Shown one piece after another: positions 8,925-25,536 of a stretch of DNA of 27,344 nucleotides; position 1 is the stretch's first letter, and each line of letters opens with the position of its first letter. Origin of the DNA: a virus; the IMG/VR virus record IMGVR_UViG_3300031576_000247, positions 1 to 27,344 of that record. One strand, 5' to 3'. The notes beneath the pieces are model-generated. The model ran no database searches, was not told the DNA's origin, and worked only from the letters and a program-made list of their open reading frames with translations. Both the position numbers and the translations under genes were made by a program.

Positions 8925-8928
8925 GGCC

Positions 8929-9722: not shown

Positions 9723-9756
9723 ACTTGATCTCCTTCCCCTGGCTGAACGGGCGAAC

Positions 9757-12101: not shown

Positions 12102-12127
12102 CCCATTCAGGATACCGGGCGCGCACC

Positions 12128-12133: not shown

Positions 12134-12205
12134 GGCTTGCGCCCGCGTCGTCGCAGCACCACGGCAGATGCTATTCCACAACCTTCTATGGAGGAAACGT
12201 ACGCG

Positions 12206-13963
12206 TTAGGCCGGGAACGAGACCGGATTCATGCCACGTACGAACGCGATCGCCTCGTTCTCGGACAGGCCTTCGTCCACGAGACACTTGATGAGCGCGT
12301 CCTCGTCGTCTCGGCTCTCGTCGAGCACGTCCTGGCACTCGTCGATCGCGGTCAGGACCGTGTCGCTCCAATCCTTGCCCTCGATCTCGCGCCGGATCTC
12401 GGCGCAGTACGCGTCGGGATCGTCTGCCTGCGGATTCTGGGCCACGCAGTCGTCATGGTCCGAGTAGCCCGCGAACGGCTTGCTCCCCATGGCCTTGCCC
12501 GGATAGGCCTCGAGCAAACGTCGTGCTTCGTCCACGTCGACGCCGTAGTTGTGGGCGCATCCCTCGATCGCGAAATCGTCCGTGTCGGAGCCGAGGCAGG
12601 CACGCAGGAGGTCCGCAAGGCCAGCGTCGTCCGTCACATCGGCGCCTTTGTCGTAGCCATGTTCTGAGACGCAGTCCTCGAGAGCGTCCACGTCGTCCAG
12701 GCTGAACGTGCCCTCACGGGTCAGGCTGAGACCGGCGAGGCAGTCGTCGATCACCGTATCCGGGACGTATCGGTAGCGAGCGAGGACCTCGCCTGACCCG
12801 AAGTCCTCCTCGCGCTCCCCGTTCTTCGATTTGCCGAAATCGTTCTCGAACGAGACCGGATCTTCGCGCCACCACCGCAGGCATTGCTCCGTCCACGCTT
12901 CCTCGAGCTCCTCACGTCCCATGCCGTCTTCGTTCGGGTCCGCATTCATCGAGTCCTGCGTGCATCGGTTCCACGTGTCCGTGTCCGGATACTCGAACTG
13001 TTTGTACCGCTCGTTGAAGCCGTCGGGATCGTCGAGCCATTCCTGTGAGCACGCGATGCGTGCGCCAGCTTCGCTGAAGCCCGTCGCCATGTAGCCGTCG
13101 ACGCACGCTTGGACGAGCTCGGGCGGCAGCGTGTCCCATTCGGTCTCGTGCGTCTTGTCCGTGCCGCTCAGGCCCTGGTCCGTCAGGAACGTGTCCACGA
13201 TCTCGGCGTGGTCCCCGCTCACGTTTCCATCTTCCAGCGCCTGCCTTAGGCAACGCTCGAGCGCAGCTTGATCGTCGGCCGCGTCCGCGAGGCACGCAGG
13301 GTATGCATCGTTGAGCAGGTCGCTCTCCGGGTCCTTCGCGCTCTTGGCCCCCGTGACGCGTGCGACGTCCGCATCGGGATTCGCGCCACCCGGCATCGCA
13401 CCGACCCAGCCCACGGCGAACAGGCCCATGTCGCGCACGACCTTGTGGCACGTCTCGTTCTCGCACTCGATCACGGCGTCCCAGGTGCCGCGGATCGAGG
13501 ATTCGGCTTGCGTGCCCACCTCCTGCATCTCGGTCCACACGCGATCGAACAGCTCGCCCAGCGCCTTCGTCGTGCCTGGCGGAGGCCAGTCCGCGGAGTA
13601 CACGCCGACCTTGACCTGGGGCTGGATCTTCTTCGTCTTCGGGTTCAGGGCCATGCGGAAGCCCAGATAGCGCCCGATCGGGATGCCCTCGTGCAGGTAC
13701 TCGTAGAAACCGTGCACGAGGAGCCAGGGGGCCGAATCGAGGATCTCCTCGGTCGGAACTTTCTCCTGTTGCTTGTCGATGCGACGCGACGAGATGAATG
13801 TGTCCGTGACGCGCCCGTTTTCCCATGCGGCCTCCGGGATCAGGACGTGCCACTCGGTCGCCTCGAGTGCGCCCGTCTCCACGGCGCGCTTCTTGACCTT
13901 GTCCACGTATTCGATGAGCTTCGAGTGGTCCAATTGGAGCGGTTCGAGCGCGGCCTCGGCCAT
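12206..13963 (-). CDS. Candidate prohead maturation protease with array of Cys-paired modules
   Basis: 585 residues. The first 200 or so (TEWHVLIPEAAWENGRV, the following LLVHGFYEYLHEGIPIGRY, then MALNPKTKKIQPQVKVGVYS, EVGTQAESSIRGTWDA) resemble XkdF/S78-like prohead proteases, with a His near 110 and a Ser near 178 as possible catalytic residues. From about 230 on it carries at least five short acidic modules, each with paired Cys (ERCLRQALED, QACVDGYMATGFSEAGARIAC, WNRCTQDSMN..EQCLRWW, DDCLAGLSL..EDCVSEHG, DDCVAQNPQADDPDAYCAEI). The last type is common at the ends of phage head proteins. The ATG is exactly 26.5 bases from a CTCAAG box. It is placed two genes before the capsid gene. The protease call needs structural confirmation. 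Confidence 0.5.
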   Translation of the reverse strand: MAEAALEPLQLDHSKLIEYVDKVKKRAVETGALEATEWHVLIPEAAWENGRVTDTFISSRRIDKQQEKVPTEEILDSAPWLLVHGFYEYLHEGIPIGRYLGFRMALNPKTKKIQPQVKVGVYSADWPPPGTTKALGELFDRVWTEMQEVGTQAESSIRGTWDAVIECENETCHKVVRDMGLFAVGWVGAMPGGANPDADVARVTGAKSAKDPESDLLNDAYPACLADAADDQAALERCLRQALEDGNVSGDHAEIVDTFLTDQGLSGTDKTHETEWDTLPPELVQACVDGYMATGFSEAGARIACSQEWLDDPDGFNERYKQFEYPDTDTWNRCTQDSMNADPNEDGMGREELEEAWTEQCLRWWREDPVSFENDFGKSKNGEREEDFGSGEVLARYRYVPDTVIDDCLAGLSLTREGTFSLDDVDALEDCVSEHGYDKGADVTDDAGLADLLRACLGSDTDDFAIEGCAHNYGVDVDEARRLLEAYPGKAMGSKPFAGYSDHDDCVAQNPQADDPDAYCAEIRREIEGKDWSDTVLTAIDECQDVLDESRDDEDALIKCLVDEGLSENEAIAFVRGMNPVSFPA

Positions 13964-13986
13964 GAAGCGTAAGCCGTGTGCGGGGT

Positions 13987-13992
13987 CTTGAG
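13987..13992 (-). promoter_or_regulatory. TATA-like box of the protease-like gene
   Basis: The minus strand reads CAAGGCTCAAGACC in the short gap after the SH3/Cys-module gene. The CTCAAG centre is 26.5 bases before the ATG at 13963, consistent with a leaderless transcript. Confidence 0.6.
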
Positions 13993-14007
13993 CCTTGCGC
14001 TCGCTCG

Positions 14008-14880
14008 CTAAACGTTCAGCAGGTCGTCCTGGGAGTACGTTTCCTCGGTCTCGCCTACGAGCAAGTGCACGGTGCCGTCAGGGTCTATTGATTGCACAAT
14101 GCCGATTGCTCCGCTTGGCGTGAACACTTCCTCACCGACCTCGAACGCCGGTTTGGCCGCGTCTTGTGTGGGCACCGCCTGTTCCTCGATCTTCCCGTAG
14201 AGCGATTCGAACGTCTGAGGATCTTCCTCACGCTGGTTCAGGCAAGCGTCGCGTGCGAATCCCTCGTCCGTGTAGGCTTCGCCGCCATCGTGGATCTCGG
14301 GGTCCATCAAGGACGAGACGCAGCGCTCGATCGCTTCGTCTTCCTTCGGCACGGCCTCCTCCGGCGCGACCGCGGACTCTGATTCGAGTGCGGCCTCGAG
14401 CGCGGCCTGTTCTGGCGCGGGGGCCGCGGGCTCGGGCGCCGTCAGGATCGTCATGGACCATTCGTCGGCCGGCACGGTGCGGCCGTCCGCGAGCTGCACG
14501 ATGTACCGCGGATACAGCACGTTGGGCGCGGGCGGGTCGTACGCGATCTCCGTCACGGTCGCGTGCTGCCCGTGCAGCGATTCGGCGTCGGGCGAGCTCG
14601 GCATATTCAGCATGACCTCGGTCCCGACGTCGAAGCGGGGCGGGATGCGCACCTCCTCCTGCTTCTCGTACACCGGGGCCTCCTTCTGGCTCGAGGCCAC
14701 GATCGCCGCGAGGATCGCGCTCAGGTCGATGCCCTCCGTGACCTCGAGCACGCCGGCCACCTGGGCGCCGTTCGCGTCCGTCAGCATGACCTGCACTTGG
14801 CTCGGTTTCGCCGTCTCCTCCTTCTGGCTCAGGAGCGCATGGTTGAGGCGTCGCTGCTCGAGTTCGCTCAAGGCTTGCAT
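14008..14880 (-). CDS. Head-region protein with two SH3-like barrels and a Cys module; source of an inverted duplication
   Basis: 290 residues. It has a helical start, then a barrel-like segment at about 80-145 (RFDVGTEVMLN, HATVTEIAYDPPAPN, YIVQLADGRTVPADEW) and an Ala/Pro/Glu linker. A Cys-paired module at about 184-230 (AIERCVSSLMDPEIHD, FARDACLNQREEDPQTFESLYG) leads to a second barrel at the C-terminus (FEVGEEVFTPSGAIGIVQSIDPDG). The Cys module is of the same kind as those in the next gene, so the two probably work in the same part of the head. Positions 14281-14379, covering the linker and module start, recur inverted inside the uracil-DNA glycosylase gene. The ATG is exactly 26.5 bases from CTCAAG. 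Exact function is not known. Confidence 0.6.
   Translation of the reverse strand: MQALSELEQRRLNHALLSQKEETAKPSQVQVMLTDANGAQVAGVLEVTEGIDLSAILAAIVASSQKEAPVYEKQEEVRIPPRFDVGTEVMLNMPSSPDAESLHGQHATVTEIAYDPPAPNVLYPRYIVQLADGRTVPADEWSMTILTAPEPAAPAPEQAALEAALESESAVAPEEAVPKEDEAIERCVSSLMDPEIHDGGEAYTDEGFARDACLNQREEDPQTFESLYGKIEEQAVPTQDAAKPAFEVGEEVFTPSGAIGIVQSIDPDGTVHLLVGETEETYSQDDLLNV
14281..14379 (-). repeat. Inverted repeat, head-gene copy (99 bp)
   Basis: These 99 bases match the reverse complement of 26273-26371 at 98 positions. The single difference is at 14358, where this copy encodes Glu (GAG) and the other would read TAG in the same sense. Similarity continues weakly to the left through GTCC(A/G)TGTAGGC, interrupted by a 3-base gap. 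This copy lies in a protein with related modules next door, so it is probably the original. Confidence 0.95.
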
Positions 14881-14903
14881 GACCTCGTATCGGACGAGGC
14901 CTA

Positions 14904-14909
14904 CTTGAG
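14904..14909 (-). promoter_or_regulatory. TATA-like box of the SH3/Cys-module gene
   Basis: The minus strand reads GGTAGGCTCAAGTAGG, where TAG is the stop of the 43-residue gene. The CTCAAG centre is 26.5 bases before the ATG at 14880. Confidence 0.6.
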
Positions 14910-14910
14910 C

Positions 14911-15042
14911 CTACCGCCGCCGCACGCCGCTCATGAACGGCACGTTCCGGTGCGCGCCGCACACGCACCTCTGGTGCACGGGCCCCTTGGCGCCGATGCC
15001 GAGGTAGCCCCAGACGTGTGCGTGTACGCGCTTAGATCTCAT
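14911..15042 (-). CDS. 43-residue basic protein with CxCxxH motif
   Basis: The frame begins at an ATG overlapping the end of the gp10-like gene by 11 bases and ends with TAG directly joined to the next promoter. The product starts MRSKRVHAHVWGYLGIG and carries RCVCGAHRN, which could bind a metal, followed by a basic tail. The stretch would otherwise be an unexplained 118-base gap in a genome where genes overlap almost everywhere, and codon use is normal. Function unknown. Confidence 0.5.
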   Translation of the reverse strand: MRSKRVHAHVWGYLGIGAKGPVHQRCVCGAHRNVPFMSGVRRR

Positions 15043-15421
15043 GTCGGAACATCCGGCCTCTGTTCATCGTCGCGAGCTCCTGGATCGCGTCCGTCACGAA
15101 CCCGCTCATGCGGCGTGCCGTGATTTGGACCGCCCGCATCAGGAACGGGTTGGGCTCCATGTACCGTGTGCCCTCGTGCACGTAGAGCGCGTACGGCGCC
15201 TTCGCATACACTTTCCACTCGAGCTCGCCCGTGCGCTCGCCCCCGATCGACCGCTGCAGACGTCCGGTCCGGACCGGGACCTCGTCGTACGCGTTCTGAA
15301 TCAGGTCCTGCGAGACCCGTTCGACCAGGTGTTCCCAGACCGGAAAGAGGCCGCGCCGCATCTCGCGCATCGCGTATTCCAGATCGTACGTCTCGGCCCG
15401 GATCGTGATCTCGGGCATCAT
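15032..15421 (-). CDS. HK97 gp10-like head-tail joining protein
   Basis: 129 residues, start ATG-ATG overlapping the upstream stop. It has the hallmark order of the HK97 gp10 family: a helical N-terminus, DEVPVRTGRLQRSIG, a strand region, APYALYVHEGTRYMEPNPFLMRAV, and a C-terminal helix. The 'P.RTG.L..S' and 'YA..VE/HEGT..M.P.PF' motifs are diagnostic. The family builds the neck-tail interface. Its position directly after the MuF block rather than beside the tail genes is a little unusual. Confidence 0.8.
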   Translation of the reverse strand: MMPEITIRAETYDLEYAMREMRRGLFPVWEHLVERVSQDLIQNAYDEVPVRTGRLQRSIGGERTGELEWKVYAKAPYALYVHEGTRYMEPNPFLMRAVQITARRMSGFVTDAIQELATMNRGRMFRHEI

Positions 15422-15624
15422 GGTTTTTTCATCTCGATCATCGTTTCGTATAGGTGGTCGCGCCATGCCTCCGCCAACTGCAAGAGGAGCCGATCGGCAG
15501 CTTCCGTTTCTCTGAGCATCTGGACACGTTCTTGGGCCTGTTCGACCTGAGCGCGCGTGTTCTGGAACGTCTCGCAGGTCAGGCAGTCATTTGGGTCGTG
15601 CTTCTTCAGCCGGAGTGTCCTCAT
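15418..15624 (-). CDS. 68-residue coiled-coil protein with CxxC
   Basis: The ATG overlaps the MuF stop (ATGA) and the stop overlaps the gp10-like start. The N-terminus MRTLRLKKHDPNDCLTCETF has a CxxC. The rest is a charged helix likely to form a coiled coil (VEQAQERVQMLRETEAADRLLL). The tight coupling on both sides says it is a real gene. Such small proteins near the portal often assist head assembly, but no family was recognised. Confidence 0.6.
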   Translation of the reverse strand: MRTLRLKKHDPNDCLTCETFQNTRAQVEQAQERVQMLRETEAADRLLLQLAEAWRDHLYETMIEMKKP

Positions 15625-16328
15625 GTTTCCACCAGGACCAGGGTACAACGGTCGAACGGGTGCGCGAGGAAGCCCTGCGTGCGCGCCTCGAGCTGGTGCA
15701 ATGTGTATGGTCCGTCCGCACGCAGTCCGTCGCAGATCTCGCACACGCGATCGTCCTCGGCCGTGACCCAGGCGTAGAGCTCGTCTGACAGGCCCAGGAT
15801 CTCGTACTGGCGCGCGCGCGCCACGTTCGAAGCGCGCGTGCTCTCGGTGCGCGCGACGAGGTCGAACTTGGACGCGCCGCTCTCCAACGCTTCCTCGAGC
15901 CCCTCGTCCCACACGTCGCGGTCGAATGCCCGGTCCTCGAACGAGGCCAGGGCGAGCGCGGTCAACGTGTCCGACTGCTCTTTGGCGAACGCGTCCAAGG
16001 CCTGCGCGATCCCGTTCGGATCGGACACGATCTCATCCAACAGGGCCTGGTCCGCGTCGCCCATGTCGAAATCGATCACGACGGCCTTGGCCCCGGCTTC
16101 GTACGCGTCCGTCATGTACGTCAGGGCCACGGGCAGGAGCTCGGCCTGAAGTGAGGCGACCGCATCCTCGATCGCGCCCATGAGCGCACCTTGGCTCCGT
16201 ACGCCCTCCGCGATCTCCGTGAGGCGCGCCGCGTACGTGTCCCAGGTATCGGCCGCGAACTCCGTCTCCACCGTGCGGATCCCGCGCACCGCGTCCGAGC
16301 CGGGTATGTTGCGCGCGCTCAGGCTCAC
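15621..16328 (-). CDS. MuF-like (SPP1 gp7-type) minor head protein
   Basis: 235 residues from a GTG (VSLSARNIPGSDAV). The N-terminal 130 or so residues are helical (TEIAEGVRSQGALMGAIEDAVASLQAELL). The C-terminal domain has the MuF pattern: ARTESTRASNVARARQYE, then DDRVCEICDGLRADGPY and the final HPFDRCTLVLVE. The CxxC, HP and RC elements are the conserved MuF residues. MuF proteins bind the portal inside the procapsid and are injected or help packaging. An upstream GGCTTCATA box sits 27.5 bases before the GTG, joined to the stop of the previous gene. The frame is open upstream, but no better start is visible. Confidence 0.75.
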   Translation of the reverse strand: MSLSARNIPGSDAVRGIRTVETEFAADTWDTYAARLTEIAEGVRSQGALMGAIEDAVASLQAELLPVALTYMTDAYEAGAKAVVIDFDMGDADQALLDEIVSDPNGIAQALDAFAKEQSDTLTALALASFEDRAFDRDVWDEGLEEALESGASKFDLVARTESTRASNVARARQYEILGLSDELYAWVTAEDDRVCEICDGLRADGPYTLHQLEARTQGFLAHPFDRCTLVLVET

Positions 16329-16352
16329 GCGACGCCATCGGGGCCCCGCCGT

Positions 16353-16358
16353 ATGAAG
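16353..16358 (-). promoter_or_regulatory. Possible TATA-like box of the MuF-like gene
   Basis: The minus strand reads CGTAGGCTTCATAC; TAG is the stop of the 112-residue gene and GGCTTCAT departs from the consensus at two positions. Its centre is 27.5 bases before the GTG at 16328. Confidence 0.4.
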
Positions 16359-16359
16359 C

Positions 16360-16698
16360 CTACGACGAGAGTGGGCGCGTCTGACCCAAGGCTTGGCGGC
16401 TCTCAATCAGGGCCCGCACGTGCTCGAGGGATGCGTCGAGTAAGGTGTCGCCCGCAAAGCACACGGGGCACCCGCCCGCCTCCTCCTCGATCAGGGCCTG
16501 GACCGCGATCGGATCGTCCCCGACCTTGACCGGGTCCACGAACCGGAACAGGAACGTCGTGGTCGCCATCGCCGTCATCATCCAGGGGTCGACGCCGAAC
16601 CGTTGCTGCAGGATGAACAAGCGCTGTTTCACGTCGGGATAGTCGGTCGCGCCGAACGCGTCGCGCACGCGTGTCCAATGTGCGTCGCACAGCTTCAA
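16360..16698 (-). CDS. 112-residue portal-adjacent protein with CxxC
   Basis: Starts at a TTG that overlaps the portal stop (TTGA), the same coupling used elsewhere as ATGA and GTGA. The product begins KLCDAHWTRVRDAFGATDYPD, continues with a Met/Thr/Phe-rich stretch (WMMTAMATTTFLFRFVD), and has an EEEAGGCPVCFAGDTLLD element and a helical end. Two Cys plus the early Cys and His could bind a metal. It lies between portal and MuF, so a head role is likely. Not recognised as a known family. Confidence 0.55.
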   Translation of the reverse strand: MKLCDAHWTRVRDAFGATDYPDVKQRLFILQQRFGVDPWMMTAMATTTFLFRFVDPVKVGDDPIAVQALIEEEAGGCPVCFAGDTLLDASLEHVRALIESRQALGQTRPLSS

Positions 16699-18368
16699 CG
16701 TTCACCGCCAAGGGAGGGCTTGGTAACAGACCTGTTACCGGATAGGCGCGGTGGCGGTGGTGAACCGGGCTGCGCGGCCGTCTCCCGCTTGCCTGATGTC
16801 TCGTACTCCATGGTCCTCGGGTCCACGATGCGCACATCCCAGCCGTGCTCGTCGAGCTGGAGGATCTGCCCGAGGCGCGCGGTCCGGATGCGCTCGAACG
16901 CTTCTTCGTCCTTCAGGTCGGGACGCACGACCACGAGGTGCCAGCTCACGACTTCGGGCCACAGCGCGAGGTAGGGCCCGTTCAGGAACTCCTCGAGCTG
17001 GGACGAATAGACTTCCATCGTGTCCAACGTGATCGTCAGGAGCTCCTCTGGGTGCCCGAGCTGGCCCGGCTGCGACTTGCCCAGGGCCAGGTCGGACACG
17101 CCCATGGCCGCGGCCACTTCCTGCACGAGCTTGTCGTACTCGCGCACCGCCTCCATGTCGCGCAGCGTCGGCATCAGATCGAGCTTGCCCGGCATCTCCT
17201 CGACGCCGAGCCAGAGATCGACGTTGCCCATCGGGTCGCCGATCTCCTCGATGCGCGCGATCGCCTTCTCGTACATCCCGGCCACGATGTCGTTGTCCAT
17301 CTTGGGGAAGCCGACGATCTGGCCCGGCGCTTCCCCGTGCTGGAACGTCTTGAGCATCCAGAGGCGGCGCCACACCAGGAGCTGGATCGTGTTCAGCAAG
17401 CTGAGGCTCGGTGGGTTGCCCTCGAGGTCGTCGTCCTTGGCCCACGTGTTGTACGACAGGATCTCGCCCGGCGCGTATCGCATGACCGGGGTCTCGTCTT
17501 CTGATTCGGGCGCGACCATGACCCAGGCCGTGGGGTACGTCTCGCCCTCGCACTCGGGGCACGTTTCCTCGTCCACGCCGAGTGCCTTTTCCGCGACAGC
17601 CGGATCGCGCCTCACGCACACAGGGCAGAAGCGCTCCTTGGGATCGCCCGGCATCCCCGTGCGCTTGTCGATGCGCACCCTCATGCGCTGGCTCGGCAGG
17701 ACCCAGATCTGGGTCACGTTGGGCTCGGCCGCCTCGTCGTCCTCATCCTTCTGACGCACGACTTCCCAATGCGTGCGGTCCAAGATCGGCTGGTACACCA
17801 TGCCCTTGCGGATCACATCAAGGAACGTGTTGAGCGGGTTCGGCCGCCGCATGAAAGCCTCGACGCGCGCGAGCTCGGCGCGCGGCGCCTCCAGCATCCG
17901 GATCGGCTTCGTATATTGCTTGCACGTCCGGTTCGTGCACGCGGGCACGGACGTCTCGTACTCGGTCCCGCATTCCGTGCACTTGCACGCGTAGTTCGGC
18001 TCCCACTTGATGCCACGCTTCGTCACCTGCGTCACGATCGCGCGGTCCGCCGAGGCCGTCAACGGCTCCATCAGGCACATCCCGAGCAGGAGCTTGGCGT
18101 CGAACTTGGGCTCGGGCGGCGCCCGATCGTACCTGCGGAGCACAGCCATGCCGCGGCCCGCCTTCTCTCCCAGCTTCCGGTCCACGACGTCCTGTACGAT
18201 CGCCACGGCGTTCGGCGCGTTCGCGGGCACGAGGCGTCGGCCCGGTTTCGCACGGCCTGGTTTCGCCCTGACACGCACCACAAGGCCGGACGGCCGAGCC
18301 GACTTCGACCGCGTGAGCGCATCCACCTCGGCCCGCGTGAGCACGCGGGCACCGCCTGGCCCGAGCAC
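16695..18368 (-). CDS. Portal protein with two inserted zinc ribbons
   Basis: 557 residues from the second GTG (VLGPGGARVLTRAEVDAL), chosen because it lies exactly 26.5 bases from the CTTAAG box; a GTG two codons upstream (18374) is possible. Portal features include LLLGMCLMEPLT, RPNPLNTFLDVIRKGMVYQPILD, the helical stem region NTIQLLVWRRLWMLKTFQHGEAPGQIVGFP, and DKLVQEVAAAMGVSDLALGKSQPGQLGHPEE near the crown. Two metal-binding knuckles are inserted: Cys 128/130/133/144/149 and Cys 248/251/270/273. The portal forms the dodecameric DNA channel of the head. A C-terminal Ser/Pro-rich tail follows. The order large terminase, small genes, portal, MuF supports the call. Confidence 0.8.
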   Translation of the reverse strand: MLGPGGARVLTRAEVDALTRSKSARPSGLVVRVRAKPGRAKPGRRLVPANAPNAVAIVQDVVDRKLGEKAGRGMAVLRRYDRAPPEPKFDAKLLLGMCLMEPLTASADRAIVTQVTKRGIKWEPNYACKCTECGTEYETSVPACTNRTCKQYTKPIRMLEAPRAELARVEAFMRRPNPLNTFLDVIRKGMVYQPILDRTHWEVVRQKDEDDEAAEPNVTQIWVLPSQRMRVRIDKRTGMPGDPKERFCPVCVRRDPAVAEKALGVDEETCPECEGETYPTAWVMVAPESEDETPVMRYAPGEILSYNTWAKDDDLEGNPPSLSLLNTIQLLVWRRLWMLKTFQHGEAPGQIVGFPKMDNDIVAGMYEKAIARIEEIGDPMGNVDLWLGVEEMPGKLDLMPTLRDMEAVREYDKLVQEVAAAMGVSDLALGKSQPGQLGHPEELLTITLDTMEVYSSQLEEFLNGPYLALWPEVVSWHLVVVRPDLKDEEAFERIRTARLGQILQLDEHGWDVRIVDPRTMEYETSGKRETAAQPGSPPPPRLSGNRSVTKPSLGGER

Positions 18369-18391
18369 GCCCACGCATGGGGCGCGCGTCG

Positions 18392-18397
18392 CTTAAG
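18392..18397 (-). promoter_or_regulatory. TATA-like box of the portal/head operon
   Basis: The minus strand reads GTTAGGCTTAAGCG, with TAG being the stop of the 38-residue membrane gene. The CTTAAG centre is 26.5 bases before the GTG at 18368. Confidence 0.7.
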
Positions 18398-18398
18398 C

Positions 18399-18515
18399 CT
18401 AACGCCCGGCCCACAGCACGAACAGGACGCCGGACACGATGGCCGAGACGAGCCCGATGAGGGCCGCGGTATCGAGCGCTCTGGGACTGGCTCGGTCGAA
18501 TGGCAGGAAGGCCAT
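18399..18515 (-). CDS. 38-residue single-pass membrane peptide
   Basis: MAFLPFDRASPRALD is followed by one hydrophobic segment (AALIGLVSAIVSGVLFVLW) and a short basic end. The ATG has GGTGAG just before it and is also 26.5 bases from a TTTATA box inside the previous gene, so it could be read either in the operon or from a leaderless transcript. Its stop is fused to the portal promoter. A small membrane peptide of this type might be a lysis regulator; function is not known. Confidence 0.55.
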   Translation of the reverse strand: MAFLPFDRASPRALDTAALIGLVSAIVSGVLFVLWAGR

Positions 18516-18517
18516 GC

Positions 18518-18700
18518 TCACCTGAACAGGGTCCAGCCTATAAATGCGAGCCCGACCAGGGTCCACATGATGGCGAGGATGAGCGCGACCCAGGCGACAA
18601 GCGCCCGATCTTCCTGCGCGCGCAGCAACCGCTTGACCTGGGCCTGGGACACGTTCTCGACCTCCGTGCCGCACGTGGGGCACTTCGTGACCGGGATCAC
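18518..18700 (-). CDS. 60-residue zinc-knuckle membrane protein
   Basis: GTG start overlapping the upstream stop (GTGA). The product begins VIPVTKCPTCGTEVENV, a zinc knuckle with only one CxxC, so a dimer would be needed to complete a metal site. After a basic helix there are one or two hydrophobic segments (ALVAWVALILAIMWTLVGLAFIGWTLF). Combined ribbon and membrane anchor at this size is common in archaea and their viruses. Function unknown. Confidence 0.6.
   Translation of the reverse strand: MIPVTKCPTCGTEVENVSQAQVKRLLRAQEDRALVAWVALILAIMWTLVGLAFIGWTLFR
18539..18544 (-). promoter_or_regulatory. TATA-like box before the 38-residue membrane gene
   Basis: The minus strand reads CATTTATAGGC inside the end of the 60-residue gene, with its centre 26.5 bases before the ATG at 18515. 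It is the closest match in the window to a standard archaeal TTTATA box. Confidence 0.5.
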
Positions 18701-18942
18701 GGTGTGGCTCCTTCGCGCACCGCGTCCGTCGTCTTCATCGCCGCGTCCGGCCCTCCTTCTGGCACAGACCGCAGAGCCACAGCCTTCAGCATGGCGCCGC
18801 ACTTGGGACATGGGTCGTTCAACGGGATCGGGCCGGACTTGAGGCCGACCGGATCACACCATGGGCAACACCAGGAATCAGGGGCGGGATTTTCGTGCCA
18901 CCTGTGCGGGAAGATGTACTGCTCGTAACGCTTCTCGATCAC
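18697..18942 (-). CDS. 81-residue zinc-ribbon protein
   Basis: GTG start in a GTGA overlap with the previous gene (VVIEKRYEQYIFPHRW). Two metal knuckles, CCPWC and CPKCGAML, separated by about 20 residues form a classic zinc ribbon; the C-terminus is polar. It could bind DNA, RNA or a partner protein. Coupling on both sides shows it belongs to the small-gene operon between terminase and portal. Confidence 0.65.
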   Translation of the reverse strand: MIEKRYEQYIFPHRWHENPAPDSWCCPWCDPVGLKSGPIPLNDPCPKCGAMLKAVALRSVPEGGPDAAMKTTDAVREGATP

Positions 18943-19151
18943 GACGCGTTCAGCCTCCTGAGGCACGCGCGGTAGCGTTCGAGCGCTCGTTCGTCCAAGC
19001 TCGGGATCTCCACGATGAGCATGGACGCGCCGCATTTGACACACCGCCTGGTGTCGGCCGAGATCTGGCCGCCGCAGAACTCACACATCATGTCCGGGTT
19101 GTCCGGATCGAACGGGGTTATGCTGAACTGCTCAGAGCCAGTTTCGCTCAT
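18939..19151 (-). CDS. 70-residue zinc-ribbon protein
   Basis: Begins MSETGSEQFSITPFDPDNPD and has two knuckles, MMCEFCGGQI and RRCVKCGASM, followed by a helical end (SLDERALERYRACLRRLNAS). The CxxC spacing is that of a rubredoxin-like zinc ribbon. The acidic, phosphorylatable-looking N-terminus resembles small archaeal ribbon proteins. Its stop overlaps the next GTG. Function unknown. Confidence 0.65.
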   Translation of the reverse strand: MSETGSEQFSITPFDPDNPDMMCEFCGGQISADTRRCVKCGASMLIVEIPSLDERALERYRACLRRLNAS

Positions 19152-19194
19152 CGCAGATTTTTCCCCGCATCGCCTCGGACTCCTCGGCGGTCAT
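19132..19194 (-). CDS. Possible 20-residue leader peptide
   Basis: An ATG in an ATGA overlap with the stop of the preceding zinc-ribbon gene opens a 20-codon frame (MTAEESEAMRGKICDERNWL). It ends just inside the next gene, whose ATG it overlaps by 20 bases. It may only serve to carry ribosomes from one gene to the next. Too short to be sure that it is a real product. Confidence 0.2.
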   Translation of the reverse strand: MTAEESEAMRGKICDERNWL

Positions 19195-19391
19195 CGCAGC
19201 ATCTCCCCCCATCTCGCATGGGTCGTCGCCTTCCTCTCCGGGGTCATCGCGCAGGCGAAGCAGATTGGCCGCCCGTCCTCGCTGTAAGGCCGGCACTCCT
19301 TCTCGGCACCACAGTAGGCGCAGGTCACGGGCGGAGTCGCCTCAACGACCACAACCACCTGTCCGCTGGGCAGCGTTATCCGCGCGGTCAC
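19191..19391 (-). CDS. 66-residue zinc-ribbon protein
   Basis: GTG start in a GTGA overlap, with AAGGAGAAGCC upstream. A strand-rich N-terminus (ARITLPSGQVVVVVEATPP) leads to VTCAYCGAEKECR and a second knuckle PICFACAM, so it is a four-Cys ribbon with one additional Cys. The end is basic. Part of the tightly overlapped small-gene run. Confidence 0.6.
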   Translation of the reverse strand: MTARITLPSGQVVVVVEATPPVTCAYCGAEKECRPYSEDGRPICFACAMTPERKATTHARWGEMLR

Positions 19392-19537
19392 CGCGGCTTC
19401 TCCTTCGGGCGTGTATGCTCGGGGCAGGTGGACTCATGCCTCGGCCCGCGAACGCGCCGCAGCAAGTCGGCTTGGACGCCCAACGCTCCTCGGTGCTGAG
19501 GAGAGCATCTGCAGTTCCATTCTCGCCACCGGGTCAT
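19388..19537 (-). CDS. 49-residue Cys/His-rich peptide
   Basis: Starts at an ATG in an ATGA overlap, following GGGAGGCCGCG. The product begins MTRWREWNCRCSPQHRG and continues with a basic helix, then RHESTCPEHTRPKEKPR. The order CxC, H, C, H could form a small zinc finger. Both ends overlap neighbouring genes by four bases, which strongly suggests that it is expressed. It is too short for standard gene finders with a 60-residue limit. Confidence 0.55.
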   Translation of the reverse strand: MTRWREWNCRCSPQHRGALGVQADLLRRVRGPRHESTCPEHTRPKEKPR

Positions 19538-19656
19538 CGCGGCCTCCCTTTCGTGTCGTGCGACAAGAGCCAGTCCAGGGCGGCCACTCCTCTCTTGATA
19601 GCCGCCTCAGACAGCGGAGAATCAACCATGCTACAATCGCCCGCGTGAATCTGCAT
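19534..19656 (-). CDS. 40-residue peptide of unknown function
   Basis: An ATG eight bases after the stop of the preceding gene opens MQIHAGDCSMVDSPLSEAAIKR and closes with HDTKGRPR, the TGA overlapping the next ATG. The sequence looks like a compact helix with an acidic start and basic end. A longer frame through the same bases (19434-19667) gives a Cys/Arg-rich sequence with poor codon use and was judged a shadow. No function can be assigned. Confidence 0.45.
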   Translation of the reverse strand: MQIHAGDCSMVDSPLSEAAIKRGVAALDWLLSHDTKGRPR

Positions 19657-19663
19657 CCGGTCA

Positions 19664-19888
19664 TCACTCCAATTCACGCCCACACTCTGGACACGATATC
19701 CACTTTCTCATCGCGGCCTCCCCCTCGGGCGGCGGGCGGCGGGCGGCGAGTCGGAAAACTGTGCCATACAATTCGGTTGCCATGGCCCGGCTCGCTGAAG
19801 TGCTGTTGTACCCGGCTGGACGCCAAGCGTCCCCGGGCGGGCGCGCCCACCACCGCTTCTTGGGGCGGGCTTCTTGTGGGGCGTTCAT
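19664..19888 (-). CDS. 74-residue Arg-rich protein ending in CPECGRELE
   Basis: ATG after GGGAGGCCGCCGCG. The body is Arg/Pro/Ala-rich and ends MRKWISCPECGRELE, a well-formed zinc-knuckle end that supports this frame. A second in-frame ATG with its own GGGGGAGGCCGCG lies just before those last 15 residues, so a very short product is possible. A competing frame (19674-19904) has an ATG 26.5 bases from a TCTAAG box but no metal motif. Frame choice is therefore moderately uncertain. Confidence 0.45.
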   Translation of the reverse strand: MNAPQEARPKKRWWARPPGDAWRPAGYNSTSASRAMATELYGTVFRLAARRPPPEGEAAMRKWISCPECGRELE

Positions 19889-19928
19889 CGCGGCGGCCTC
19901 CCATCACCGCGTGAACGGAAAAGCCTGC

Positions 19929-20492
19929 TTAGAGTCCGCCCCGTTTGAACAAGTCGGGCCTGAACGTGACGACCTTGCGCGCGGGCGCGTTCTGCACCAG
20001 GATCCCGAGGCCGCCTTCGCGCATCAGGCCGTGCTTGCGTTGGAACGCGATCCGCTCCTCGGTCCGGGCGCGCGCGTGCTCGATCGTGAGCCTGGCCCGC
20101 GTCAAGTCCTCCTGCGACATATGCCCGTAGTGGCAGATCTCCTTGCAGAAGCGTTGCGCCTTGTGCCCGCCCCCGCTCCACGTGTTGTAGTCGTCCCAAT
20201 CCTTCCAGACGCCGCACCGGATCGGGCGCCGCGCGGGCCCGTGCTCGTTCCGGTTGTATGGGCACTCGATGCCGAACAGGTTCGGGTTCATGGCCTGTCC
20301 GAGCTGCGCGACCGTGAGGTGCTCGTCCCGCTTCTTCAGGTCGTCAGCGCTCATCATGGCGAGCGGCATCGGCTCCAGCTTTTTGTTCAGGACCCAGGGC
20401 GTCTCGGCGCGTTCGCGCGCGAGGCGCTTCGCGTCGAATGTGTCGTCCCGGATCTGACCCGAGAGGCCCCGGATCGCCTCAATCGACGGCAA
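19929..20492 (-). CDS. 187-residue protein with CPxxC-like metal motif
   Basis: Start placed at a TTG (PSIEAIRGLSGQIRDD) overlapping the upstream gene by 14 bases; no ATG or GTG lies near. The middle holds a Cys/His cluster (GIECPYNRNEHGP, PIRCGVW, FCKEICHYGHM), which could hold one or two metals, followed by a charged helix (TRARLTIEHARARTEERIAF). The end is strand-like (LGILVQNAPARKVVTFRPDLF). The family is not recognised; a nucleic-acid role is possible given the basic helix and metal site. Confidence 0.6.
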   Translation of the reverse strand: MPSIEAIRGLSGQIRDDTFDAKRLARERAETPWVLNKKLEPMPLAMMSADDLKKRDEHLTVAQLGQAMNPNLFGIECPYNRNEHGPARRPIRCGVWKDWDDYNTWSGGGHKAQRFCKEICHYGHMSQEDLTRARLTIEHARARTEERIAFQRKHGLMREGGLGILVQNAPARKVVTFRPDLFKRGGL

Positions 20493-20853
20493 CGCGCTTC
20501 CCCGCGTGCAGCCCTTCTGCGGCCTGGAACGTGCCCGCGTTCTCGCCCTCGGCCGTCACCGAAGCCACGATCGAGGCCCACGTGTCCGCGTCGAACTCGA
20601 TCATCGCTTCCACGGACGCGTCCTCGCGCGGAAACGCCCGCTTCACGACGCGCACGCGTCCGTCCTCGAGGCGTTTGAAGTACCAGCCGTTGACCGCGTG
20701 GAACGCGCGCGCGGTCAAGACGCACGTGCAACGGCACGTGAACGCGGTTGGCAGGGTCTCGCCGCGAGCCACGATCTCCGCGCCCTTCAGGTGGCTGTGC
20801 TCCGTGTGTTCGTGATGCCGACCCTCCGCGCACGCTTCGCACCGCAACGTCAC
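20479..20853 (-). CDS. 124-residue Cys/His-rich protein
   Basis: GTG start in a GTGA overlap with the large terminase. The N-terminus TLRCEACAEGRHHEHTEHSH is a dense metal-binding cluster, continued by FTCRCTCVLTA. The rest is alpha/beta (HAVNGWYFKRLEDGRVRVV, FDADTWASIVASV) with a basic strand. It resembles small phage proteins that carry a Cys cluster and a beta-hairpin domain. Coupled to terminase expression. Function unknown. Confidence 0.6.
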   Translation of the reverse strand: MTLRCEACAEGRHHEHTEHSHLKGAEIVARGETLPTAFTCRCTCVLTARAFHAVNGWYFKRLEDGRVRVVKRAFPREDASVEAMIEFDADTWASIVASVTAEGENAGTFQAAEGLHAGKRVAVD

Positions 20854-22280
20854 AGCCGCAACCGCCTGCGGCGCCTAACGGTGATGCCGTATTTGGGCTT
20901 TACCTCCATCAGGCGCGTGGTCCCGTGCCAACCTGCGTCAAGCAGATCGTCGTGCTTGCCCGTGGGGAAGTTGCGGATCTCCGTCACGAGCTCCTCCTTG
21001 CCCCTCATGTCACGCAGCAGGAGGATGCGACCCGCCTCGAGATGCGTGCCGAGCCACTCGAGCCGTTGCACCTTGTTCCCCCTGGCCGGGCTCGCCACGA
21101 CCGGCACGTGCGATTCTTTCATCACCTGCTGGGGGAGCGCGCGCTGGTACGCCGCGTCCTCGATCGGGACCTCGTCCACGGGCGTCTTCGAGCTCCACTC
21201 GGCGTAGTGCGACTGGACCGCCTTGACCTGGCCCGGAAAGTCGGATCGGAAGCGCCACGCGTCGAGCCACACGATGCGCCCGTTGTCGAACTTGTCCATC
21301 GTGATACACGCGGTGTAGTCCGGGTCCTCCTCGACCTTCTCGCTGATCGCGAGGTCCCAAGCCTGCGAGCGCCTCACCTGCTTCCAGCCCTTGTCCCGGA
21401 TCTCGTCGAGCGAGATCTGGTGCAGGTCGAAGCGCCACCGTATGCCGCCGAGGTCGACGGGCTCGTTCAGGAAACGAGCGCGGAACGCGAGCTCGCCCAT
21501 CTCGGCTTGCTTCATCCTGAGCGCGTCCCAGGACCACCGTTCGGGCCACAGGAGCGTGCCGTCCCAATGGTCGAACGCGCGGTCCACGCGCACGTTCCAG
21601 CCCGGTATCTTCTCCAGGTACGCCCACACGTCTTCCTTGTGCCACCTACTCCCGTACGCATGGACCGTGCCCTGGGGCTCGAGCCGGGCCAGGAGCACGT
21701 TCTTGACCCATGTGATTGCGTGCGTGCGTTCCGCCTCCGACATCAAACTGTCGATGTCGATGATGTCGTCGATGAAGATGTCGTCGCAACGCACACCTTC
21801 GATGTTGCCCAGGAGGCCCGTGGCGGTCACGGTCGATTCCTTCAGGTTCCGCGTTCGCTTGACCTGCCATTGCGTCTCGCTCCACTTGAGCGGGTCTTTC
21901 TCGAGCTGGAAGTCGTGCCGCAGGTGGTCGTTCGTCTCGACCTCGCGCATCAGGCGTCGGGACAGGTCCTGCGCGCGCGGCAACGTCTTCGAGGCCAGGA
22001 TCAGGCGGCGGTTCCGATCGCCCGCGATGCGCCACATGGGCAGCACGAGACCGCCCAGCGTGGACTTGGCGTGCCCGACGGGTCCGAGCCACAGCGTACG
22101 TGGGTGCTGCGCGGTCGCCGTGTACACATCCTGGAGAAACTCGGGTGTCTCGCATTCGAACTCGAAATACTCACGTGCGAATACGCGTGGATCTGCGAGC
22201 GCGGCGCGCACGCGTCGCCTCTCCTGGAGCTCAAGGCCGGCCTGGTCGAACATGGCATCGACGTCGGCTCGGGACATCAT
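20850..22280 (-). CDS. terL: Large terminase subunit
   Basis: 476 residues from ATG-ATG overlapping the HNH stop; the longer open frame upstream only re-reads the HNH gene. Walker A is LGPVGHAKST (about residues 66-74). Walker B with its catalytic acidics is DDIFIDD (166-172), and TVTATGLLGNIEGV before it fits the ATPase core. The C-terminal nuclease has an RRSQAWDLAIS acidic centre and GKHDDLLDAG. Together they are the packaging ATPase and headful or cos nuclease of tailed viruses, which work at the portal vertex with the small subunit. The basic C-terminus (RRRRRLRL) is notable. Head of the packaging and small-gene operon; translation coupled at both ends. Confidence 0.92.
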   Translation of the reverse strand: MMSRADVDAMFDQAGLELQERRRVRAALADPRVFAREYFEFECETPEFLQDVYTATAQHPRTLWLGPVGHAKSTLGGLVLPMWRIAGDRNRRLILASKTLPRAQDLSRRLMREVETNDHLRHDFQLEKDPLKWSETQWQVKRTRNLKESTVTATGLLGNIEGVRCDDIFIDDIIDIDSLMSEAERTHAITWVKNVLLARLEPQGTVHAYGSRWHKEDVWAYLEKIPGWNVRVDRAFDHWDGTLLWPERWSWDALRMKQAEMGELAFRARFLNEPVDLGGIRWRFDLHQISLDEIRDKGWKQVRRSQAWDLAISEKVEEDPDYTACITMDKFDNGRIVWLDAWRFRSDFPGQVKAVQSHYAEWSSKTPVDEVPIEDAAYQRALPQQVMKESHVPVVASPARGNKVQRLEWLGTHLEAGRILLLRDMRGKEELVTEIRNFPTGKHDDLLDAGWHGTTRLMEVKPKYGITVRRRRRLRL

Positions 22281-22810
22281 GGGAGCCGCCTCTGCTTGTA
22301 CGGCGTGGTCGGGACGCCCGCGTAGCCCCGCTTGAACGTGCGCACGTGACACCGGCGGCACAGCACGGCGAGGTTCGACGGGTGGTTCGTGCCCCCGTCC
22401 TGCCTCGGCTTGATGTGCTGGATCTCGACCCAATCCTCGTCGCGTAGCGCGCCTTTCCCGTTCCACACGCCCCACGCGACCGAGCCTTGTCCTTGGAGCA
22501 CGCCGTCGACCGTGTCCTCCCAGACATGGCCGCAGCCCTGGCATTTCGGGTGCCGTTTCCACGGATTCGCGGGATCGTCCGGGTTCACGATCGAGTCACG
22601 GATCAGGACGACGCGCTTCGCCTGCCACCAGGTCGAATCCCAAGCCTGGTCTGAACCGTCCGGCTTCCATGCGGACGTCGCGCAATGGTTCGCGATGTGG
22701 TCCGGGGGTGCTTCATCCGCGCGGTGGCGTGCGCTCTCCCCGCAGCCCTGGCAATAAGCGTACGTCAGGATCGCCCCAGCGCGGCATCGAGATGAGGCGT
22801 GCCCGTGCAT
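22277..22810 (-). CDS. HNH endonuclease with N-terminal zinc knuckle
   Basis: The C-terminal part is a typical HNH domain: CQGCGHVWED, then VEIQHIKPRQDGGTNHPSNLAVLCRRCH with its His, Asn and His and the structural Cys pairs. The N-terminus has YCQGCGESARH, a further knuckle. HNH nucleases next to terminase genes commonly assist packaging cleavage. The ATG given overlaps the upstream gene by 46 bases. A CTG at 22768, in a CTGA overlap like the couplings elsewhere, would give a more compact protein beginning at TYAYCQGCG. The start is therefore unsettled, but the gene is clear. Confidence 0.8.
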   Translation of the reverse strand: MHGHASSRCRAGAILTYAYCQGCGESARHRADEAPPDHIANHCATSAWKPDGSDQAWDSTWWQAKRVVLIRDSIVNPDDPANPWKRHPKCQGCGHVWEDTVDGVLQGQGSVAWGVWNGKGALRDEDWVEIQHIKPRQDGGTNHPSNLAVLCRRCHVRTFKRGYAGVPTTPYKQRRLP

Positions 22811-22944
22811 TCCTTGTGCACCACGACCTGGGACACGGAATCAACCATGGCGCGTCTCTCCTCGGGTTCGACGTGGACCGAGATATCCTGGATCGGCATC
22901 CGGCACACGTGACACAGGAACACGACGTGCACGTGCTGTCTCAT
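22765..22944 (-). CDS. 59-residue Cys-rich protein
   Basis: The ATG overlaps the stop of the small terminase gene (ATGA). MRQHVHVVFLCHVCRMPIQD gives one CxxC; a second Cys lies in VVVHKECTGTPH, so a metal site with His is likely. It bridges an otherwise empty stretch between the small terminase and HNH genes. Function unknown. Confidence 0.6.
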   Translation of the reverse strand: MRQHVHVVFLCHVCRMPIQDISVHVEPEERRAMVDSVSQVVVHKECTGTPHLDAALGRS

Positions 22945-23579
22945 GGGTCTCCCGCAGGCAATGCCTCGAGCGCGCGCTTCCGCATCTGGTCCAACGTGCC
23001 TTTGGTCCCCTCGGGATCGTCACGCAGGACCGCGTCCACGATGAACTGGACCGCGACCGTGTCCACGTGGCCCTCGACCTGCAGTTTGTCCGGGGCCTTC
23101 GGCAGGACCCCGAAGCGCTGCAGGAGCCCGATGTGCCTGTCCGTGCGCTCCACGATGTCGTCGAACAGGCCCTGCCTCCGCTCGACGCTGCGCAAGCGCA
23201 GATCGTAGGTCCGGATGTCCACGTCGGCCTTCTGTCGCGGCGTGAGCCCGTCGACCTCGTTCACGAGCTTGGCCTGGTCGCGCACGTCCTCGGCCTCGCC
23301 CACGAGACCGTGGAGCTCGCGTATGGCCGATTCGAACGTCGCGTTCGCGAGCATGACCCAGAACGTGGGGTCGCGTTGGGTCAGCTTGATCTGCATCTCC
23401 TTGCGGATCGCGGCCAGGTCCGCGTAGATCGTGGTGAAATGGACGTCGAACTGGATCGCGACCTTCTTCACTTCGATCTCGGTCGGCTGCCCCGCGGTCC
23501 TCGCGAGGAACTGCATCAGGAGGCGACGCCGCGTGTTCGTCTCGAGCTTCTGTTCCTTGACCGGCTCTACGGCGGCCAT
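22941..23579 (-). CDS. Small terminase subunit (probable)
   Basis: 212 residues from an ATG with CGGAG eight bases upstream; an in-frame ATG 18 bases earlier (MDAGVG) lacks a ribosome site. The N-terminus looks like a helix-turn-helix (TRRRLLMQFLARTAG, EIEVKKVAIQFDVHFTTIYADLAAIRKEM). It is followed by long charged helices (RTYDLRLRSVERRQGLFDDIVERTDRHIGLL) of the type that form the oligomer, and a C-terminal segment that could contact the large subunit. Gene order (just upstream of HNH and terL) and architecture agree with a small terminase that recognises viral DNA. Confidence 0.65.
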   Translation of the reverse strand: MAAVEPVKEQKLETNTRRRLLMQFLARTAGQPTEIEVKKVAIQFDVHFTTIYADLAAIRKEMQIKLTQRDPTFWVMLANATFESAIRELHGLVGEAEDVRDQAKLVNEVDGLTPRQKADVDIRTYDLRLRSVERRQGLFDDIVERTDRHIGLLQRFGVLPKAPDKLQVEGHVDTVAVQFIVDAVLRDDPEGTKGTLDQMRKRALEALPAGDP

Positions 23580-23767
23580 TCCAACTCCGGCGTCCATTCG
23601 GGCCCGAGCGTGAGGTAGCCCGACGCGTTCTGCACCTGGTGCTTACACGCGGGGCACCTCGTGAGCGGTGTGCTCGTGTTCATGTTCAGGGAGAGGCACT
23701 CGGTGCACGCGCATGGTGAGGGCACGGCGGCCGTGCTGGGCACGTTCTGCACGCAGCTCAGGCACAC
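23567..23767 (-). CDS. 66-residue zinc-ribbon protein, first gene of the packaging operon
   Basis: GTG start (CLSCVQNVPS) exactly 26.5 bases from the CTTAAG box, so translated from a leaderless transcript. The sequence holds CLSC, CACTEC and RCPACKHQ, enough Cys for one or two zinc sites. It ends ELEWPP and overlaps the small terminase frame slightly. As the first gene after a strong promoter, it may be a regulator or a packaging accessory; the family is not recognised. Confidence 0.65.
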   Translation of the reverse strand: MCLSCVQNVPSTAAVPSPCACTECLSLNMNTSTPLTRCPACKHQVQNASGYLTLGPEWTPELEWPP

Positions 23768-23790
23768 GCGTCCATTAGCCCGGCACGACG

Positions 23791-23796
23791 CTTAAG
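23791..23796 (-). promoter_or_regulatory. TATA-like box of the packaging operon
   Basis: The minus strand reads GTGAAGGCTTAAGCG, 26.5 bases (centre) before the GTG at 23767. It is one of three exact copies of AGGCTTAAGCG in the window and the only one that is not joined to a stop codon. Confidence 0.7.
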
Positions 23797-23837
23797 CCTT
23801 CACGTGCTCCTTTTCGACCGTGTCTTGTATGGAACGA

Positions 23838-23910
23838 TAGCCCCGGCCTGCTTCGAACAGACGTCACCCGACCCAGGATCGAGGATGCTTGGCCTCTACA
23901 CCACGGGGCT
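23838..23910 (-). tRNA. tRNA-Gln (CUG anticodon)
   Basis: 73 bases fold into a complete cloverleaf. The acceptor is AGCCCCG/CGGGGCT with discriminator A, and the D-stem is GTGT/GCAT with A14, GG and A21 in the loop. The anticodon stem is CTCGA/TCGGG around TCCTGGG, the variable region is TGAC, and the T-stem is GTCTG/CAGGC around TTCGAAG. U8, A14, G15 and C48 are all in place. The anticodon reads CUG, and the weak A1-U72 pair is typical of Gln. Base 33 is C instead of the near-universal U, a real oddity. CCA is not encoded. No intron. A TATA-like TTTTTA is centred 26.5 bases before the first tRNA base. Confidence 0.9.
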
Positions 23911-23933
23911 GCCACGGGGAACGCGGCACGGAC

Positions 23934-23939
23934 TAAAAA
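23934..23939 (-). promoter_or_regulatory. Possible TATA box of the tRNA gene, overlapping a terminator T-run
   Basis: TTTTTA on the minus strand has its centre 26.5 bases before the 5' base of the tRNA, the same spacing as the protein promoters. The same bases are the T-run after the strong hairpin, so one element may end one transcript and start the next. Confidence 0.45.
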
Positions 23940-23980
23940 GGTGCGGTCCCGCCTCGAGGGGGAGATGGGGGCGGGACCGC
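23935..23980 (-). terminator. Hairpin plus T-run, terminator of the right-hand operon
   Basis: An 11-base perfect stem (23943-23953 with 23970-23980; GCGGTCCCGCC / GGCGGGACCGC) with a 16-base loop is followed on the minus strand by ACCTTTTT. It lies 44 bases after the stop of the last gene of the right-hand operon. It is the strongest stem-loop noticed in the window. Confidence 0.6.
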
Positions 23981-24022
23981 GACTCCTACTGCAAGGGGCA
24001 CACGTACAGGATGCGTCCTCGT

Positions 24023-24028
24023 CTTAAG
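24023..24028 (-). promoter_or_regulatory. TATA-like box overlapping the stop of the 66-residue gene
   Basis: The minus strand reads CAAGGCTTAAGACG; the TAA inside it is the stop codon of the gene at 24024-24224. The expected start of transcription near 23999 would give a short RNA of about 60 bases holding the hairpin. Only a 22-codon GTG frame follows, so either a small RNA is made or the match is chance. Confidence 0.35.
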
Positions 24029-24224
24029 CCTTGCCTGAGACGAGGTCCCGGTGGGCCTTTGCGGCCTTCACCAGAGCTTGACCCAGATCGTCCGCGCCCT
24101 GCGACGTGAGCTCCGCGGGATTCTGCTCGAACGTGACCGTGATGTACGGCTCGGATCCCGCGTCAAGCAGGAGGTCCACGAACACGTCCTTGTTCCGCTT
24201 GTCCTTCAGCGCCTTGAACCTCAT
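24024..24224 (-). CDS. 66-residue protein of unknown function
   Basis: MRFKALKDKRNKDVFVDLLLDA begins a small alpha/beta protein, with a strand (PYITVTFEQNP) and a final helix (ADDLGQALVKAAKAHRDLV). The ATG is exactly 26.5 bases from a GTTAAG box, so it has its own leaderless transcript in addition to operon read-through. The last gene before the terminator. No family recognised. Confidence 0.6.
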   Translation of the reverse strand: MRFKALKDKRNKDVFVDLLLDAGSEPYITVTFEQNPAELTSQGADDLGQALVKAAKAHRDLVSGKA

Positions 24225-24247
24225 GCACGCGGATTGCGCGGTCCCGG

Positions 24248-24253
24248 CTTAAC
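24248..24253 (-). promoter_or_regulatory. TATA-like box of the 66-residue gene
   Basis: The minus strand reads AGGGGTTAAGCC; the TAA in it is also the stop codon of the YkgJ-like gene. The centre is 26.5 bases before the ATG at 24224. Confidence 0.55.
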
Positions 24254-24704
24254 CCCTTCGACGCCGCCACGCTCGTATGGCCCGGTCTCGCTTTCGCCAA
24301 ATCGCGAAGGCCGCGCGCTTCGTGATGCGAACGAACCTGTACGAGCACACGTTGCGCACGACCTGATAATGGCCGTCCGACGGCGTCGACGGGAACTGGT
24401 AGCACACGGCCGGCTTCACTTTCTGGATCCCGCACAGCAACCCCTTGAGCTGCGCGCACGGCTTCTCGAACCACCACGTCTTCGCTCGCTTGAGGTAGTG
24501 CACGGTGCGCACGCCGAGCACGGCCGCCATGTACCGCGTGTGCTCCCGGCCCCCGCCCGACACGATGCGGCAGCACGCGGCCCCGCACAGGTCGGGCTTG
24601 CACGATCCGACCCGCTTGAAGTATCCGTGTGCCGCGTACACGACGTAGGGCTCCCAGATCGTGAAGCTGTATGGCGTGCCCGGCGGCGGCTTCACGAGAT
24701 TCAT
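24249..24704 (-). CDS. YkgJ-like CxxxxCxxxCC protein (metal or Fe-S binding)
   Basis: 151 residues, ATG overlapping the methyltransferase stop (ATGA). The key motif is SCKPDLCGAACCRIV followed by GREHTRYMAAVLG, then PCAQLKGLLCGIQKVKPAVCYQFP, the layout of the YkgJ family of zinc- or iron-cluster-binding proteins (PF03692). In cells such proteins bind metal through eight Cys; their role in viruses is not settled, and repair or modification of macromolecules has been proposed. A basic tail (IWRKRDRAIRAWRRRRG) suggests nucleic-acid contact. Confidence 0.7.
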   Translation of the reverse strand: MNLVKPPPGTPYSFTIWEPYVVYAAHGYFKRVGSCKPDLCGAACCRIVSGGGREHTRYMAAVLGVRTVHYLKRAKTWWFEKPCAQLKGLLCGIQKVKPAVCYQFPSTPSDGHYQVVRNVCSYRFVRITKRAAFAIWRKRDRAIRAWRRRRG

Positions 24705-25216: not shown

Positions 25217-25380
25217 GAGATTCGATGACGCCACACGTGACACATCCCGTGTCCCTCGAGCTCCGTGCAATGGACGCGCGCCGTGCCCTGCCCTGTCAAG
25301 GGGCACGGGGCCCCGCACGCGTGCTTCCGCGTCGACGCGACGATCGGGCTCGTGGTCCCCTCGAGCGTCGTCTGACTCAC
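25174..25380 (-). CDS. 68-residue Cys/His protein
   Basis: GTG start in a GTGA overlap (SQTTLEGTTSPIVAS). Metal-type residues are spread as HACGAPCPL, RVHCTELEGHGMCHVW; His and Cys spacing suggests a single zinc site. Small, with no recognised family. Overlaps the methyltransferase start region. Confidence 0.5.
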   Translation of the reverse strand: MSQTTLEGTTSPIVASTRKHACGAPCPLTGQGTARVHCTELEGHGMCHVWRHRISWYGDDPNSVTRIR

Positions 25381-25535: not shown

Positions 25536-25536
25536 G

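Follow-up and report, generated by a model that had tools for sequence, protein, structure and literature searches.

In a GC-rich viral genome, short boxes centred 26.5 or 27.5 bases ahead of start codons very probably serve as basal promoters, with a TATA box in a GC-tolerant spelling. The virus is tailed, and its host would be a GC-rich archaeon with leaderless transcription, most likely one of the Thermoplasmatota. This reading draws on features seen in the sequence: the boxes, their spacing, a contrast in Shine-Dalgarno (SD) pairing, a tRNA gene that anchors the start point, and a geometry that recurs both in a related virus and in a host-like genome.

Gene layout of the virus

The window, by which we mean the whole stretch of DNA analysed, is a virus record of 27,344 bases with 65.8% GC. 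All genes with listed boxes are encoded on the minus strand, as are the structural genes. Those for packaging and structure are:

22280-20850, minus strand: TerL
18368-16695, minus strand: portal protein, with a predicted leaderless GTG start
16328-15621, minus strand: Mu F-like minor head protein, GTG start
15466-15032, minus strand: HK97-gp10-like/neck protein
11154-9757, minus strand: major capsid protein (MCP)

TerL has weak matches to many phages, of bacteria as well as archaea. A uracil-DNA glycosylase (UDG)-like gene (26758-26081, minus strand) lies upstream of the packaging and structural genes. It contains one arm of a 107-nt inverted repeat (14280-14386 versus 26266-26372, 96% complementary), in which part of the AGGCTCAAG-driven gene 14880-14008 recurs, reversed, within the UDG-like ORF; the repeat reflects either recombination or an assembly fault.

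A box word at a fixed distance from start codons

Eight hexamers had been placed 26.5 or 27.5 bases before named start codons in the preliminary description, and re-measurement returned all eight distances as claimed. The centre-to-start distance is 26.5 for 13963 (CTCAAG), 14880 (CTCAAG), 18368 (CTTAAG), 18515 (TTTATA), 23767 (CTTAAG) and 24224 (GTTAAG), and 27.5 for 4723 (CTTAAG) and 16328 (CTTCAT). Their treatment as one family holds for the five sites that carry exact AGGCTYAAG (13963, 14880, 18368, 23767 and 4723); the rest are of mixed spellings. The box sites in the window are:

4748-4756, minus strand: AGGCTTAAG box, 27.5 before ATG 4723
7763-7772, minus strand: AT-rich box CCTTAAAAGG ahead of GTG 7737, which would give a leader of about 4 nt; absent from the preliminary list
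12126-12135, minus strand: AT-rich box CCTTTTAAGG ahead of ATG 12101, which would give a leader of about 3 nt; absent from the preliminary list
13987-13995, minus strand: AGGCTCAAG box, 26.5 before ATG 13963
14904-14912, minus strand: AGGCTCAAG box, 26.5 before ATG 14880
16353-16361, minus strand: weak variant AGGCTTCAT, centred 27.5 before the start of the Mu F-like minor head gene (GTG 16328)
18392-18400, minus strand: AGGCTTAAG box, 26.5 before portal GTG 18368
18539-18544, minus strand: TTTATA, doubtful member, 26.5 before ATG 18515
23791-23799, minus strand: AGGCTTAAG box, 26.5 before GTG 23767 (66-aa Cys-rich protein)
23934-23939, minus strand: TTTTTA box, centre 26.5 before the tRNA-Gln 5' end
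24023-24031, minus strand: AGGCTTAAG box with no ORF behind it, overlapping the stop codon of the gene that ends at 24024
24248-24257, minus strand: AGGGGTTAAG variant, GTTAAG centre 26.5 before ATG 24224

AGGCTYAAG occurs six times on the minus (coding) strand of the window and never on the plus strand, whereas 400 dinucleotide shuffles averaged 0.085 sites and yielded 2 at most. Five of the six sites precede genes; the sixth (24031-24023), missed in the preliminary description, has no ORF behind it. When the 36 gene starts were examined, four had the word at 26.5 and one at 27.5, with none at other distances from 10 to 60. A search in which word and distance were both left free returned AGGCTTAAG at the 26.5/27.5 position as the top word. 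With randomly placed starts, the score of 4 obtained by AGGCTTAAG (9-mers, 1 mismatch) was equalled in 3 of 300 trials, and the observed score of 5 for 10-mers with 2 mismatches was reached in none of 100. The constant spacing is thus unlikely to be a product of chance, as had been proposed, given the free-word trials, the 6:0 strand bias and the shuffles (0.085 versus 6). After correction the evidence from the window alone stands at about 1%, which is moderate, and becomes strong once the independent tests below are added.

Start codons and predicted leaderless transcripts

Pairing with the anti-SD sequence was computed over positions -20 to -3 of each start. The 10 box genes gave a median of -3.05 kcal/mol versus -7.3 for the 26 others (p = 0.0007). 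One box gene is an exception: start 18515 has an SD of -7.9 kcal/mol and lies two bases after the stop of the previous ORF, a coupled start, with its TTTATA inside that upstream coding sequence. It was dropped from the box family for these reasons and is probably not leaderless. Apart from 18515, the proposal of leaderless transcripts is supported by the spacing, the lack of SD, the tRNA 5' end, the vir519 geometry and the Thermoplasmatota CTTAAG peak (the last three described below); leaderless status is a prediction from spacing, supported by the absent SD behind the boxes.

The spacing also bears on the choice of start codons. The portal start had been corrected to GTG 18368, and this correction is retained because the alternative, GTG 18374, would precede the predicted RNA start. 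The boxes of 12101 and 7737 sit 3-4 bases further out, so leaders of 3-4 nt are predicted for these genes; in the Haloferax study, leaders of 0-5 nt count as leaderless (PMC4983044).

The possibility that the boxes are chance words chosen post hoc, or the trace of a conserved coding peptide, takes its force from the heterogeneity of the listed set and from 18515, which is probably a chance member. We consider it extremely improbable in the face of the free word and distance trials, the strand bias, the SD contrast and the recurrence of the same spacing in independent genomes (vir519 and G073, see below).

A tRNA-Gln gene and a predicted hairpin RNA

A tRNA gene and a predicted small RNA lie next to each other here:

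23910-23838, minus strand: archaeal-type tRNA-Gln (CTG)
23935-23999, minus strand: predicted small hairpin RNA of about 65 nt, behind the AGGCTTAAG box at 24031-24023

The T-rich TTTTTA box is centred exactly 26.5 bases upstream of the mature tRNA-Gln 5' end, which requires no choice of start codon and so provides an independent anchor for the start point. Among GTDB genomes, exact copies of the first 26 bases of the tRNA turned up at 17 loci, all of them archaeal and none bacterial. Eleven of these loci are named as Thermoplasmata/Thermoplasmatota, and the rest as Hadesarchaea, DPANN/Woesearchaeota and one uncultured archaeon; the pattern was not found in viral contigs. For the sixth exact box, the point 26.5 bases from its centre is 23999, the predicted RNA start; downstream of it come an 11-bp hairpin without mismatches (23980-23943), ACC and TTTTT (z = -3.42). 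The hairpin RNA has no match in Rfam. The T-run of TTTTTA may serve both as part of the tRNA TATA box and as the terminator of the hairpin RNA.

Geometry in the related virus vir519

MCP and portal have a sole match in the phage collection, the archaeal virus vir519 (BK063666), which is assigned to Methanofastidiosa. Both proteins are only distantly related to those of vir519, yet the architecture is alike: TTTATA lies at -25.5 to -27.5 before eight annotated vir519 genes, one of them the portal gene, which is also GTG-started and has TTTATA at -26.5. The differences are in the letters, since vir519 has 41% GC, canonical TTTATA and an additional palindrome, GTACTGATCAGTAC, and AGGCTYAAG is absent from it. 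The same geometry with other letters indicates that the architecture is shared and that the spelling varies with base composition.

The palindrome occurs at 2777, 3810, 27050 and 28569 of vir519, one copy altered, immediately behind TTTATAAG boxes, and looks like an operator on the leaderless promoters of that virus. Searches of IMG/VR with TerL, MCP and portal, and with an MCP pair alignment, gave no nearer relatives. A 44% GC Thermoplasmatota bin (G022) with MCP relatives was set aside as too distant, its genes being SD-led and without such a promoter; a related capsid gene is present in it twice, as diverged copies on two contigs, among strong SD genes.

Another reading takes the boxes for promoters of a bacterial or phage polymerase, with short leaders that lack an SD, and TerL does match terminases of bacterial phages. 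But TTGACA/TATAAT sigma-70 sites number 3 versus 1.4 expected in 8000-27344, and the coding strand has none of them; the tRNA, the MCP and the portal are all of archaeal kind; and a box at -26.5 from the tRNA 5' end matches the distance typical of an archaeal TATA box. This origin of the boxes is very unlikely.

CTTAAG in candidate host genomes

The preliminary description had linked the box to the TBP/TFB preference of the host and pointed to candidate host genomes as the place to look for motif and spacing. The spacing was recovered in three genomes (G073, G162 and G053) and not in G002 or most Thermoplasmatota; the link to host preference gains from the CTTAAG peak in G073 but does not extend to the preceding AGG, which was not found there.

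In G073 (Thermoplasmatota, 69% GC, 757 kb read), CTTAAG lies at -26.5 before ORF starts 8 times versus 0.39 per position, counted over candidate starts that include several per ORF. Independently of ORF calls, the CTTAAG-to-ATG spacing is 23 nt six times and 24 nt four times versus 0.48 per spacing. For spacings 22-24 p is about 3e-6, and the 23-24 peak holds 10 versus about 1 expected; G073 was picked as an outlier in a survey of 389 genomes, so the excess is not a single pre-planned test, although that choice took in no more than the 22-24 range and not the exact peak position at 23-24. G162, a family mate of G073, gave 13 versus 3 in the reversed control, and G053 has CTYAAG at -27.5 four times versus 0.15. 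No CTTAAG peak was found in 200 kb of G002, a Thermoplasmata genome with 69% GC whose tRNA-Gln carries the same 26-nt stretch, nor any CTTAAG excess in most Thermoplasmatota genomes surveyed. Since a GC-rich genome such as G002 is without the peak, CTTAAG spacing appears to be a lineage habit.

In 12 boxes of G073, eight have C and four have G at position -30, -31 is mixed, and AGG is not enriched. Uniform in the virus and not seen in G073, the AGG may be viral. Within the host-like taxonomic order, exact AGGCTYAAG gave only a handful of matches, close to control. A free EM motif search in G073 was caught by codon signals and its result discarded. Scans of 389 and 80 Thermoplasmatota genomes revealed neither a provirus nor a clear protospacer; the matches that did appear were tRNA-like ones of at most about 80% and weak short ones of a kind expected by chance in many genomes, and they were rejected. 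On balance we infer that a host among the Thermoplasmatota is somewhat more likely than not.

A model for transcription from the boxes

The departure of the box letters from the TTTATA norm was correctly described: CTTAAG or CTCAAG occupies most sites, and TTTATA or TTTTTA only 18515 and the tRNA. This counts against a TATA reading, because CTTAAG breaks the published archaeal TTTAWA-like consensus. That consensus varies between archaeal groups and so is not strictly defining, and G073 shares the departure. The distances, 26.5 to the tRNA 5' end and 26.5/27.5 to start codons, fit an archaeal TATA/BRE basal promoter. Ahead of CTYAAG, all six exact sites carry WAGG, apparently in the place of a BRE and unlike the A-rich BRE of other archaea.

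In the model that we favour, host TBP would bind CTYAAG, which would replace the TATA box, with TTTTTA and CCTTWWAAGG as AT-richer spellings in the same virus; TFB would contact the DNA at WAGG. We infer that RNA polymerase starts about 26 bases past the box centre, on or beside the start codon, so the first gene of an operon would be read from a leader-free mRNA and downstream genes by SD. Boxes of this kind would also drive tRNA-Gln and the predicted hairpin RNA. Genes for TBP and TFB are absent from the window.

The uniformity of WAGG may reflect a strong BRE, shared descent of the viral promoters, or the site of a viral regulator such as the product of ORF 27276-27055 (minus strand). This 73-aa winged-helix-like ORF has sub-threshold Pfam matches to HTH_Crp_2 and TrmB and is a candidate regulator. 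Its presence lends something to the alternative that AGGCTYAAG is an operator or upstream element through which a viral regulator co-activates one gene class, any basal TATA role being secondary. The viral word is longer and more uniform than that of G073 (W-AGG in 6/6 versus absent as a rule), the virus has boxes without AGG as well (12101, 7737 and the tRNA), and the vir519 palindrome adjoins TATA boxes in four places. However, the word is placed exactly where TBP and TFB must bind, a regulator site there would leave the genes without a free TATA box, and six sites within one genome may share descent; we judge this alternative rather unlikely. Rather doubtful, too, is a version in which WAGGCTYAAG goes beyond a degenerate TATA box and forms an extended element, recognised either by one specific TFB paralogue or by a virus-coded winged-helix protein and defining one regulon of portal, neighbouring head genes, a tail-region gene and the hairpin RNA, with the ordinary AT-rich boxes as a second class.

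Comparison with known systems

Where a TTTATA search fails, as in GC-rich archaea and their viruses, the basal promoter reading supplies a rule for locating promoters and correct start codons, and it hints at the host of viruses that lack spacer matches. It makes the tolerance of TBP for CTTAAG open to experiment and draws attention to a predicted small RNA overlooked by ORF-based annotation.

Archaeal promoters of leaderless transcripts have been described before, as have viruses that repeat a promoter (PMC4983044, PMC8707807, PMC11065993). dRNA-seq of Haloferax volcanii revealed TATA/BRE basal promoters and mostly leaderless mRNAs with GTG as well as ATG starts (PMC4983044), features that our reading predicts here as well, whereas the haloarchaeal consensus is TTWT with a BRE of CGAAA in place of the CTYAAG and WAGG of this virus. 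Halovirus HF2 likewise has repeated promoters in one archaeal tailed virus, with TATA from -26 of mapped starts, but there the repeat unit measures 58 or 29 bp and has an AT-rich core (PMC8707807), compared with a 9-bp word in 66% GC DNA. New are the AGG extension and the use of CTTAAG where the TATA box would stand, both in GC-rich archaea and in a virus; a full-text search of open-licence papers for CTTAAG in archaeal promoters gave nothing relevant. A further parallel is with SIRV2-type early promoters, in which a near-identical BRE and TATA core precedes many genes of one archaeal virus; there the core is TTTAWATA with a purine-rich BRE and the genes are early accessory ones (PMC11065993), whereas the boxes described here serve structural and packaging genes, a tRNA and a predicted hairpin RNA.
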